DNA from: Flavobacteriales bacterium
GTDB taxonomy: Bacteria; Bacteroidota; Bacteroidia; NS11-12g; UBA955
Assembly: GCA_947463125.1 (NCBI GenBank)
Contig: CANHQZ010000012.1
Coordinates: 1-50,514 of the forward strand
DNA: 50,514 bases
Reading direction: 5' to 3'
Under the pieces are notes generated by a model that was given only the letters and a program-made list of their open reading frames with translations, was not told where the DNA came from and searched no databases. How positions within the stretch are numbered: the first letter of the stretch is position 1; the number at the start of each line of letters is the position of its first letter. This document shows, piece after piece, positions 31,197 to 34,838 of the stretch. The position numbers and the translations under genes are program-made.

Positions 31197-31997
31197 ATGA
31201 ATCCACCATTGCGGCAAGAATGGATAAATGCACTGGCACCTGTTTTGGGACCGGAGGAAACCGAAGCCTGCTTCAGAATCTATGCAGCCTGGCTGAAAGA
31301 CAAAAACCAGGAAATGCAGCAAACGTCCATGGAGGACGTAATACGTCGATTGCGCAGGCATGAACCCATACAATATGTGCTTGGGGAAGCCTGGTTCTAT
31401 GGCATGGCTTTTATGGTAAACAAACACACACTGATTCCAAGGCCGGAAACCGAAGAACTCTGTGACATGATTATTAAATCAAACGCAGGTGAAAACCTGC
31501 GCATACTGGACGTTGGAACCGGAAGCGGTTGCATTCCGGTAACCCTGCTGAAACATAAAATCCACTGGACGGCAACAGCGCTGGATATAGACCGCGAAGC
31601 CTTGGCCATAGCCGAAAAGAATGCGCAAATACAAGGGGTTTCAGAGCGCATTTCCTTTAAACAGGCCGATTTCATTAACGGTTTTTCATCTGCGGATAAA
31701 TGGGATCTTATTGTATCCAACCCGCCTTACATCAACATGGCTGAAAAGGCTACAATGGAAAGCAATGTGCTGGACTGGGAACCACACACTGCGCTGTTTC
31801 CAAAAGGAAATGATGCTTTGATTTTTTATAAAAAACTGGCTGACTTATTGTACCGCCAAAACAGCAACTGTGTATTATGGGCAGAAATAAACAGTGCGCT
31901 TGCTGAAGAAACCCTGCATATTTTTAATGGATTCCGTTTCAAAAAACTGATAAAAGATATGAGCGGAAAATTGCGGTTTCTGCAGGTGATTACATAA
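31197..31997 (+). CDS. prmC: Release-factor glutamine methyltransferase PrmC
   Basis: A 266-residue class I SAM methyltransferase. The substrate-loop motif is NPPY at residues 175-178, with the SAM site ILDVGTGSGCIPVTLL and the conserved LIPRPETEEL just before it. PrmC methylates the GGQ glutamine of RF1 and RF2. It starts four bases after the lamin-tail gene, so it may share its transcript, and it ends at a strong hairpin terminator. Confidence 0.94.
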   Translation: MNPPLRQEWINALAPVLGPEETEACFRIYAAWLKDKNQEMQQTSMEDVIRRLRRHEPIQYVLGEAWFYGMAFMVNKHTLIPRPETEELCDMIIKSNAGENLRILDVGTGSGCIPVTLLKHKIHWTATALDIDREALAIAEKNAQIQGVSERISFKQADFINGFSSADKWDLIVSNPPYINMAEKATMESNVLDWEPHTALFPKGNDALIFYKKLADLLYRQNSNCVLWAEINSALAEETLHIFNGFRFKKLIKDMSGKLRFLQVIT

Positions 31998-32024
31998 AAA
32001 AAGGGGCACGGAGCCCCTTTAATT
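31998..32024. terminator. Bidirectional rho-independent terminator
   Basis: Stem AAAGGGGC/GCCCCTTT with a five-base loop (32000-32020), flanked by A-rich and T-rich tracts, between the convergent prmC and AT-hook genes. It serves prmC and perhaps both. Confidence 0.85.
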
Positions 32025-32042: not shown

Positions 32043-32705
32043 TTATTTAGCCAGCGAAATTCCGTCTTTAACTTTTTTCAGTTCACCGCTTTTGTAAATC
32101 TGGGTGAGGGTTGTATACATACCCTGATAAAAACGCTTTTTATCGGTTTCGCCGCTGTTTGCGAACAATGCAGATATAAGCTCAGAAGACTTAACGGTTT
32201 TGGGAGCAGATTTCATAAAGTCCAGAATCATGCTCTTTTTGGTAGGCTGACCTTTACGGGGTCTTCCACCGCGCTTTTTGGCGTTCTTGGGCGGTCTTCC
32301 GCGACGCGCTGCAGGCTTGGCGGCAGCGGGGCGACCCGGCTTTCTTCCGCGTTTTGCCGGACGGCCCGGACGACGGCGCTTGGCCTTCATGCGTTCCTTC
32401 AGCTTCTCTATTTTTTTGGCAGCTTTCGCCTCAGCCTTTTCTATGGTTTTGGCAGCCTTGGCTTCCATTTTTGCAAGCTGCTTGTCAGCAGCAGCCTTAG
32501 CTTTCTTGAGGGCTGTTGCCATTGCCTTCATTTGTTTTTCGATGGCTTCGAAAACATTTATTTCAGGCTTTGCGGCCCTACGACCACGTTTCTTGCCCTG
32601 TACTTTATTTTTTGATCCTGGTTTACGCCCTCTTTTTTTGGGCTCAGAAGCCCCTGCCGGTGGCGTTGCCACAGCTTTGGTAACTGCTTTTGGTTTGCGT
32701 GCCAT
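32043..32705 (-). CDS. AT-hook / histone H1-like DNA-binding protein with a winged-helix-like C-terminus
   Basis: A 220-residue, highly basic protein. AT-hook cores appear at residues of about 24-32, 39-43, 111-118, 118-127, 134-140 and 145-151 (for example KRGRKPGRP and RRGRPPK). Between residues 50 and 108 lies a long Lys/Ala/Glu-rich segment that should form a coiled coil or a charged single helix. Residues of about 157-220 (SMILDFMKSAPKTVKS... KKVKDGISLAK) look like a winged-helix domain: three helices and a wing. The layout matches a nucleoid-organising, H1-like protein binding AT-rich minor grooves. Its own upstream spacer is the most AT-rich stretch I see here. A one-mismatch -7 box (AATTTTTG, 32734-32741) lies upstream. 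Not recognised as a characterised family. Confidence 0.8.
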   Translation of the reverse strand: MARKPKAVTKAVATPPAGASEPKKRGRKPGSKNKVQGKKRGRRAAKPEINVFEAIEKQMKAMATALKKAKAAADKQLAKMEAKAAKTIEKAEAKAAKKIEKLKERMKAKRRRPGRPAKRGRKPGRPAAAKPAARRGRPPKNAKKRGGRPRKGQPTKKSMILDFMKSAPKTVKSSELISALFANSGETDKKRFYQGMYTTLTQIYKSGELKKVKDGISLAK

Positions 32706-33064
32706 ATTATTTTTTATTGTTTAAATGGTCCTGCAAAAATTGCACTATTTTTTTGCATTACAAAGTAATTATTAAAAAAACACATAATTATTTTGTCATG
32801 ATTTTTAATTTAATCATTTAAAATATCGTATAACATTGTTATTCTTTATTTTAAGTTCAAATTAAATCAGCTACAAGGGAAATTTTTATGACACAATAAT
32901 GAAAATTTGTAAAACTATTTTTTCAGATTTATGTTTTCTCTTATTTAAAAAAATGATAATTGATATGATGCAGGTCATATCAACTTTATACTGCTATTTA
33001 CTTTTCATACATCGCAAATCGAATTAAAACTGACTTCCATAAATATCTTACACGCTACTTATGG
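32706..33064. other. AT-rich intergenic spacer
   Basis: About 360 bases between the divergent AT-hook gene and dxs, with many A and T tracts, and no ORF, RNA gene or convincing hairpin. It is a plausible site for AT-hook binding and thus autoregulation or nucleoid looping; that is inference. Confidence 0.6.
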
Positions 33065-33072
33065 TAATTTTG
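33065..33072 (+). promoter_or_regulatory. -7 promoter box TAATTTTG
   Basis: Perfect -7 box, eight bases before the dxs TTG start; predicts a leader of only a few bases. Confidence 0.6.
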
Positions 33073-33080
33073 CAAACAGA

Positions 33081-34838
33081 TTGACGCTACTCCAAAACAT
33101 ACAAAAAGCCTCAGACGTATCCGGTCTTTCGGAGGATGCATTAAAAATCCTTTGCGATGAGTGCCGTCAGTACCTGATAGATACCATACTGCAACATGGC
33201 GGGCACTTTGCCGGAAATCTGGGAGTAGTGGAGCTTACTGTTGCCCTGCTGAAGGTATTTAATACAGATTCAGACAGAATAATTTGGGATGTAGGACACC
33301 AGAGCTATGCGTGGAAAGTGCTTACCGGCAGACGTGATTCCCTTGCCTCAATCCGCTCATACGGAGGCATTTCCGGCTTCCCCAGGCGCGGTGAGCACCC
33401 TGACGATCATTTTGGAACCGGACATTCCAGCACTGCTATTTCCGCCGCCATGGGAATGGCTGTGGCTGCAAAACTGCAAAACAACCCAATACCGGTTCAT
33501 ATTGCCGTAGTTGGTGATGGTGCCCTCAGCGGTGGAATGGCATTTGAGGCACTGAACAACGCTGCTGCATCAAAATCCAACCTGCTGATTATTGTCAATG
33601 ACAACCAAATCAGTATCGATGCCGGCACCGGCGCCATGAATGAACATCTGGCAAACATCAAACCGGGCGAACCCAACCTCTTTACCCAGCTTAATCTGGA
33701 TTATCACGGACCCGTGGATGGTCATAACCTGACCGAACTGACACATCAGCTTTCGCGCATGAAATCCATGCAGCACCCCAGAATTCTGCACATCAAAACC
33801 ATCAAGGGAAAGGGCTACGCACCTGCAGAAGCGGAACAGACCAAATGGCACAGCACTTCCAAATTTGTGAAAATTGACTCTCAAAAGTCCACACCGGTTC
33901 TAAAATGGCATGAAGCTGCAGGAAAAACCATGCTGGAAATTGCAGAAAAATTCCCGCAAACCACCGGCATTACACCGGCGATGCCCAGCGGCAGCGGCCT
34001 GATTGACTGTTTTGCCCGCCATCCAGACAGGTTTTTCGATACAGGCATTGCGGAACAGCACGCGGTTACTTTTGCAGCAGGTTTAGCTGCATCGGGCTTA
34101 AAGCCTTATCTGTTCATTTACTCTACATTTCTGCAACGCGGCTATGACCAGGTAATCCATGATATTGCCCTGCAAAATCTGCCTGTTGTGATTTGCATAG
34201 ACCGGGCCGGCCTCGTGGGCGAGGATGGCCCGACACACCACGGAGCCTTCGATATTCCCATGCTGCGCTGTATACCCGGAATACGGATGCTTGCGCCTGC
34301 CACAGGGCATGAATTACACAGCATGATGATGGAAGCCGTTCACGCAGATTATCCCGTAGCCATCAGATACCCCAAAGGGCCCGTGCCTGAATATAGCCGG
34401 GATCCGGGCGATAAAAACCTGTTGAACCACCCGGGTTTTTGCCTGCAAAAAGGAGAAAAAGTAGCTGTGTTAAGCACAGGCAATGCCACAAACCTTGTGC
34501 AGCAGGCTTTTCGGACCAACAAGCTTGACGCGGCTCACTACCATTTCCCCGTGGTAAACCTCCACGATGAAAAAATGGCAACAGATATCGCCGGCAAATT
34601 CACCCGCATTATCACGGTAGAAGACGGAGCCATTACAGGTGGTTTTGGAGAAGGCTGGTCAGAGGCTTTGCACAAAAAAGGTTTTTGCGGAAGCATTAAA
34701 CACCTGGGGATTCCCGATACTTTTATTACCCATGGCAGCAATGAAATATTGTATGATCTGTGCGGTTACTCGCCTGCCAAGATTGCCGAAACCATAACAG
34801 AAGCCTTACGTCAGGCTGCGGGTCCAGTTGTTGATTAA
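33081..34838 (+). CDS. dxs: 1-deoxy-D-xylulose-5-phosphate synthase DXS (short form)
   Basis: A 585-residue DXS, the entry enzyme of the methylerythritol-phosphate isoprenoid pathway. It has VWDVGHQSYAWK, the thiamine motif GDGALSGG...NDN, the catalytic Glu in TGIAEQHAVTFAAG, and DRAGLVGEDGPTHHG. Typical DXS is about 620-640 residues; between NDN and the LFTQLNLDY block only about 24 residues remain where the E. coli enzyme has about 55-60, so a flexible loop of about 34 residues is missing. Start is TTG 33081. The 3' end overlaps the convergent pabA-type gene by 33 bases. Confidence 0.94.
   Translation: MTLLQNIQKASDVSGLSEDALKILCDECRQYLIDTILQHGGHFAGNLGVVELTVALLKVFNTDSDRIIWDVGHQSYAWKVLTGRRDSLASIRSYGGISGFPRRGEHPDDHFGTGHSSTAISAAMGMAVAAKLQNNPIPVHIAVVGDGALSGGMAFEALNNAAASKSNLLIIVNDNQISIDAGTGAMNEHLANIKPGEPNLFTQLNLDYHGPVDGHNLTELTHQLSRMKSMQHPRILHIKTIKGKGYAPAEAEQTKWHSTSKFVKIDSQKSTPVLKWHEAAGKTMLEIAEKFPQTTGITPAMPSGSGLIDCFARHPDRFFDTGIAEQHAVTFAAGLAASGLKPYLFIYSTFLQRGYDQVIHDIALQNLPVVICIDRAGLVGEDGPTHHGAFDIPMLRCIPGIRMLAPATGHELHSMMMEAVHADYPVAIRYPKGPVPEYSRDPGDKNLLNHPGFCLQKGEKVAVLSTGNATNLVQQAFRTNKLDAAHYHFPVVNLHDEKMATDIAGKFTRIITVEDGAITGGFGEGWSEALHKKGFCGSIKHLGIPDTFITHGSNEILYDLCGYSPAKIAETITEALRQAAGPVVD

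Follow-up and report, generated by a model that had tools for sequence, protein, structure and literature searches.

H-NS-like bridging proteins combine an N-terminal oligomerisation domain, a flexible linker and a C-terminal DNA-binding domain, and descriptions cover H-NS in Enterobacteriaceae, MvaT in Pseudomonas, Lsr2 in actinomycetes and Rok in Bacillus (excerpts of PMC6936261). Rok has, immediately ahead of its winged helix, an arginine-rich tail (R105-R112) that touches the minor groove and phosphates next to this domain; A-tracts are disfavoured, and GRP AT-hooks are stated to be absent (excerpts of PMC6212790). RGRP and PGRP cores and the GSKNK extension are treated, in excerpts of the AT-hook literature, as AT-hook signatures, the extension being AHL-type. 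In the part of the open-licence PMC literature covered, we found neither a described Bacteroidota counterpart of the H-NS and Rok types nor a paper that appears to describe the protein analysed here.

Here, we analyse an AT-hook/winged-helix protein from a lake bacterium (Flavobacteriales bacterium, GCA_947463125.1). The window, i.e., the whole stretch of DNA analysed, comprises 50,514 nt (positions 1 to 50,514 of contig CANHQZ010000012.1), and the gene lies between two genes that we take to be prmC (judged by its sequence) and dxs (as in the initial annotation; Table 1). All parts of the protein are of known kinds; the novelty lies in how they are combined, in the fixed locus and in the C-terminal half being exchanged in some relatives. 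The protein is probably a lineage-specific chromatin protein that has not been described before.

Table 1. Features of the AT-hook locus, with positions in the window
Feature	Position	Strand	Remarks
prmC (release factor methyltransferase, presumed)	31197..31997	+	next to AT-hook gene in 35/35 family loci
Bidirectional intrinsic terminator	32000..32020	.	between convergent prmC and AT-hook genes
AT-hook/helix/winged-helix gene, 220 aa	32043..32705	-	ATG start; stop codon counted in
Winged-helix domain (predicted), residues 155-220	32046..32243	-	structure predictions and fold matches
Five further AT-hook cores, residues 114-152	32250..32366	-	last is KRGGRPRKGQ, abutting winged helix
Charged helix (predicted), residues 51-110	32376..32555	-	AlphaFold2, pLDDT about 84-92
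N-terminal AT-hook KKRGRKPGSKNK, residues 23-37	32595..32639	-	most conserved stretch besides winged helix
AT-rich spacer, divergent	32706..33080	.	AT-hook gene to dxs start
Putative -7 box of AT-hook gene, AATTTTTG	32734..32741	-	resembles TAnnTTTG
Putative upstream box of AT-hook gene, TTTG	32761..32764	-	19 nt from AATTTTTG (TTTG-N19)
Putative dxs -7 box, TAATTTTG	33065..33072	+	kept in most congeners
dxs (DXP synthase, presumed)	33081..34838	+	TTG start; divergent from AT-hook gene in 33/35 family loci

Sequence and predicted structure of the AT-hook protein

The AT-hook ORF is a real gene whose reading frame is under purifying selection. Compared with the congener L018, dN is 0.053 and dS 1.62, giving a dN/dS of 0.033 that is approximate, with dS saturated; compared with L020 the values are 0.105, 1.45 and 0.072 (for L019 and L021, no dS could be calculated). 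We also considered an ORF on the + strand (32278-32724) as the true gene and set it aside, as changes relative to L018 and L020 are mostly synonymous in the - strand frame. The antisense frame stays largely open in four congeners (116-161 codons), so its openness alone is not decisive.

The encoded protein is strongly basic (pI 11.3, net charge +52) and carries seven GR[PKR] AT-hook cores (residues 26, 41, 114, 120, 124, 136 and 147). The initial annotation had counted at least five; these are real, and the actual number is seven. Six of them are GR[P/K], which was never reached in 20,000 residue shuffles (maximum four), and the number of GRP cores was reached once. Four of the seven cores are GRP and the other three GRK or GRR, more than expected by chance, and the protein possesses R-G-R-P cores flanked by basic residues. 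The GSKNK extension of the N-terminal hook occurs in 35 of 35 relatives, and G26, R27, G30, S31, K32 and N33 are invariant across 33 aligned rows. The hook directly before the winged helix is likewise kept in all 35 relatives, which have three to seven cores each and a pI of 10.2-11.5.

An AlphaFold2 model of the whole protein, with 14 family members as input, has low confidence at residues 1-50 and 111-150, i.e., around both hook clusters (pLDDT about 39-64), and predicts a 60-residue helix between them and a winged helix at the C-terminus (H156-166, a short strand, H173-184, H189-206, E209-212 and E215-218; pLDDT about 85-95). A second prediction, for residues 146-220 with 33 members as input, gives the same winged-helix secondary structure. 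The charged helical spacer and the winged-helix C-terminal domain proposed initially are both recovered, the latter with high confidence. Helix 3 of the winged helix has conserved polar positions (Q194, T198, T199, T201, Q202 and K205), and the wing positions vary within the family. In the charged helix, the power at period 3.6 is reached by a fraction of 0.0002 of shuffles, and the conserved hydrophobic positions (52, 55, 59, 62, 66, 77 and 80) could form a dimerisation face. With its many charged and Ala residues and a period closer to 3.6 than to 3.5, this segment may form a single amphipathic helix and not a coiled coil.

Among isolated-domain matches to the C-terminal domain, globular domains of linker histones are the commonest, with 15 of the 50 rows listed in one comparison and 17 of 50 in a second (VIA-align 2; rows counted by hand, some being titled only as chromatosomes). 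They match with Z 8.7-9.9 and rmsd 1.7-4.5 Å over about 65-74 residues. The winged helices of cullin WHB, MCM, ORC, Hel308 and a retron effector lie within about 1 Z of them, and the absence of Rok among the VIA-align 2 matches listed carries no evidential weight. Foldseek returned no match to this domain at E <= 0.001 (790 at E <= 10), and the viral-protein fold matches are generic winged helices, none of them at E <= 0.001. As modelled, the C-terminal domain has a winged-helix fold with a shape like that of H1. The fold alone is no proof of kinship with H1; unrelated winged helices score alike, and no sequence profile connects the two. The Pfam linker-histone model has no match at E up to 10 with 14 members, or at E up to 1 with the whole window protein. 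The suggestion that the protein resembles H1 by convergence rather than homology is thus upheld as likeness without detectable homology. Searches of Pfam, NCBIfam, PHROGs and PDB sequences gave weak matches only, driven by the helix or by composition, and no curated family. The Pfam AT_hook model PF02178, which has 13 positions only, gave no hit to the window protein at E up to 1.

Basic disordered GR-rich segments can bind RNA too, and one winged-helix match is the ribosome-bound LYAR (6zmi), which would suit a basic protein that binds RNA or ribosomes and uses its hooks for nonspecific contacts with nucleic acid. However, the RGRP/PGRP cores and GSKNK are AT-hook signatures and the AT-rich spacer beside the gene is conserved, and we consider such a protein very improbable. 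Winged helices can serve for protein contacts as well, as in the cullin WHB matches, and this counts against the reading in which the domain grips DNA.

The AT-rich spacer and its putative promoters

The initial annotation pointed to an AT-rich spacer of 360 bases beside the gene. The AT-richness stands, the length is 375 bp, and the promoters on either side of the spacer are divergent. Its GC content is 22.1%, versus 46.7% for the window, of which it is the lowest-GC 360-bp stretch; the 11 other intergenic gaps of at least 60 bp have 30-49% GC. A/T runs of at least 6 cover 198 of the 375 bp, against an average of 37 and at most 119 in 1,967 segments taken elsewhere; no other part of the window is as rich in long A/T runs. 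A-tracts are not significantly enriched beyond composition (15 vs 10.9 in shuffles, reached by 72 of 1,000), TpA steps are few (43 vs 56.5 in base shuffles), and no repeats were found in the spacer.

AT-richness beside dxs is conserved in every locus that could be checked. In all 33 loci the counterpart spacers are AT-rich, with a GC fraction of 0.19-0.31, or 0.45-0.69 of the locus value. When gaps were compared roughly, on the basis of ORFs, in 32 of the 33 loci (L048 being unmappable), a second gap existed in 29, and in 28 of these the spacer had the lowest GC; one of 64 other gaps is as low. Ordinary promoter composition may account for part of this AT-richness. In an alignment of six sequences from the genus, the spacer is poorly conserved except at both ends, which hold promoter-like boxes; what is conserved is the composition of the spacer, not its sequence, save its ends.

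These boxes include a putative -7 box and an upstream TTTG for the AT-hook gene, and a putative -7 box for dxs. A TTG/TTTG element upstream of the -7 box is part of such promoters. The promoter pattern matches 17 of 34 loci against 0.8 expected; it was written from six sequences that are themselves six of the 17 matches, and the remaining 11 include several loci that are closely related to one another. A scan for E. coli-type promoters around the spacer was uninformative (1 vs 2.3 expected). For a flavobacterium, a -7 consensus of TAnnTTTG and a median leader of 24 nt are given in excerpts of PMC9723704.

The TTG start of dxs lies 8 bases past its -7 box (33065-33083) and no in-frame ATG is close by, so the dxs mRNA may be nearly leaderless. 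In six relatives (L031, L036, L040, L046, L047 and L048) there is an inverted repeat just past the promoter, about 20-50 bases upstream of the AT-hook ATG. It forms a predicted hairpin in all six despite differing sequence (energy z-scores -1.1 to -3.7), is not present in the window gene, and might serve as a hairpin in the leader or as a palindromic operator.

Distribution and chromosomal address

Relatives were found in 16 of 39 near genomes (single-sequence search), in 41 of 70 genomes and 7 of 14 genera of the same taxonomic family, and in 42 of 108 genomes of the order, where the added genome (G030) has AT-hook-sized fragments only. Across a phylum-wide sample, two of 395 genomes gave a match, the genome itself and one with a hook-sized fragment, so that a wide distribution in Bacteroidota is not supported. 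A scan of 84,980 species genomes yielded 35 loci, all Bacteroidota by title save one labelled Sphingomonadales. Among the 41 family genomes, 35 have full-length matches, three (genus g2) match piecewise and have a shorter hook region, and a further three (G013, G455 and G457) match in the N-terminal half only. No relatives were identified in viral contigs, phages or plasmids that would point to an origin there. The protein is confined to about one taxonomic family and apparently defines an undescribed protein family. Half of the genera of that taxonomic family are without the gene; thus, it does not encode a universal nucleoid protein.

The narrow distribution weighs against a strict xenogeneic silencer that covers AT-rich acquired DNA genome-wide and silences it. 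The succession of helix, basic linker, hook and winged helix does resemble the Rok layout, and at a window GC of about 47% AT-rich acquired DNA would be distinguishable. However, the spacer is poor in TpA and holds A-tracts of the kind that Rok disfavours (AT-hooks would accept them), and we regard this role as unlikely.

The chromosomal address is conserved. prmC is convergent with the AT-hook gene in 35 of 35 family loci, and the two loci in which dxs is missing are on contigs that end before it. Among 30 genomes picked for having no full match to the protein, dxs was found in 27; in the 28 dxs loci then compared, a prmC relative adjoins dxs only in L105, which ties the AT-hook gene to the prmC-dxs arrangement. 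No other basic hook protein was seen at these 28 loci, of which at least L090, L102 and L116 are cut upstream of dxs. The AT-hook gene is probably a single-gene transcript, since the bidirectional terminator shuts it off from prmC.

Such an address could be that of a local dedicated regulator, which would bind the divergent spacer and control itself and dxs, and with it isoprenoid supply, and have no genome-wide role. Both genes are divergent across the spacer in all 33 loci that reach dxs, and promoter-like boxes for both are inside it. However, prmC and genes past dxs are part of the fixed neighbourhood too, which may be plain synteny in one taxonomic family, many low-specificity hooks suit a general binder better, and the spacer is kept by composition rather than by sequence outside its ends. 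On balance, we think that a purely local role is improbable.

Exchange of the C-terminal half

In three genomes, the N-terminal half of the protein continues into a different C-terminus. In G013 (L087), the protein encoded in the prmC-dxs slot has the N-terminal hook and the helix, after which comes a tail of 88 residues (82% K, A and P), and G455 (L085) has in the same slot a 115-residue tail of KPKAV repeats that is 72% K, A and P (the start points of both tails were chosen by us). The N-terminal half in G455 can be aligned to the window protein (35% over 122 columns, E 3e-13). G457 (L086) has, at this address too, a KPKAV-type repeat like that of G455, and its contig stops inside the repeat. 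No winged-helix remnant was found nearby in L085, L086 (as far as the contig reaches) or L087. The KPKAV repeats are near-perfect (L085:3555-4319, - strand; L086:4493-5080, + strand); one assembly breaks there, and the repeat number may differ between strains.

G019 encodes in the prmC-dxs slot (L105:938-1354, - strand) a protein of 139 aa with a shorter helix and tandem GRPRIHP hooks, with six GR[PKR] cores. PF02178 matches this hook array below the model cut-off (E 0.021). The similarity of the protein to the family is weak and composition-prone (E 0.004, in one pairwise comparison); it is not clearly homologous and is possibly another gene.

Thus, at one address different predicted DNA-gripping ends are encoded, one of them resembling the C-terminal tail of H1. 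That K/A/P tails stand in for the winged helix in three genomes would fit a general DNA-packing role better than that of a single-site regulator. A more far-reaching reading is that a silencer of AT-rich DNA or an analogue of linker histones arose independently in Bacteroidota, put together from AT-hooks, a helix that dimerises and a winged helix of the H1 type, with a C-terminus that is interchangeable at one locus between a winged helix, a K/A/P-rich H1-type tail and a tandem hook array (the last in one genome and possibly another gene). We offer it tentatively, as something that could be so and more probably is not; if true, it would be a natural series in which to ask how the individual parts of a linker histone matter. 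A conserved protein in which AT-hooks go together with an H1-like winged helix, this domain being naturally swapped for an H1-type tail, would represent a testable case of convergent chromatin-protein evolution.

A proposed nucleoid-associated role

We consider it fairly probable that the protein is a lineage-specific nucleoid-associated protein that grips AT-rich DNA, perhaps as a dimer. The several AT-hooks, i.e., the invariant N-terminal GSKNK hook and the cluster that runs up to the winged helix, would insert into AT-rich minor grooves, and the C-terminal winged helix would give a second DNA contact. The helix between the hook clusters would space the DNA-binding units and probably dimerise them, so that the protein could coat or bridge AT-rich DNA by multivalent binding. 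The spacer, with both promoters, would be a likely high-affinity site, and we infer that the gene is probably self-regulated, as we would any effect on dxs. The same genome encodes two HU genes. The AT-hook protein is therefore an addition rather than a replacement, and basic nucleoid packing need not depend on it.

Comparison with known systems

Like the bacterial H1-like proteins AlgP, Hc1 and BpH1 and CarD of Myxococcus, the family has lysine-rich or AT-hook tails. None of these proteins is known to have such a winged helix, and the family gave no matches to them in Pfam or NCBIfam. Several RGRP/PGRP hooks are shared with HMGA and plant AHL proteins, and the N-terminal hook has the AHL-type GSKNK extension. 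AHL proteins have a PPC domain and HMGA an acidic tail, whereas the window protein has a long helix and a winged helix in their place.

AlphaFold2 predicts a helix, a disordered stretch and a winged helix, a layout that would be of the H-NS/Rok type if the helix oligomerises. Like Rok of Bacillus subtilis, the protein has an N-terminal helix (a predicted coiled coil in Rok), a basic stretch and a similar size. In both, an arginine-rich element lies directly before the C-terminal winged helix, and the KRGGRPRKG hook, ahead of the start of the winged helix at residue 155, would take the place of the arginine-rich tail of Rok. Rok also reaches the minor groove through N154 and T156 at the start of helix 3 and R174 in the wing. 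The fold match to the Rok domain is weak (Foldseek 5zuz at rank 42, E 0.15, prob 0.66, TMq 0.47, 23% identity). Unlike Rok, to which there is no sequence match, the window protein carries true GRP hooks both before and after its helix.

With H1 and H5 the protein shares a winged-helix globular domain (Z 9.5-9.9 with 1hst, 7dbp and 7kbf) and very basic flanks, and it differs from them in its AT-hooks, in the C-terminal position of the winged helix and in the missing Pfam linker-histone match. The K/A/P-rich tails of its relatives resemble the H1 C-terminus. By analogy, the best reading is that the AT-hook protein would work like Rok and H-NS, or like a mini-H1, without being one.
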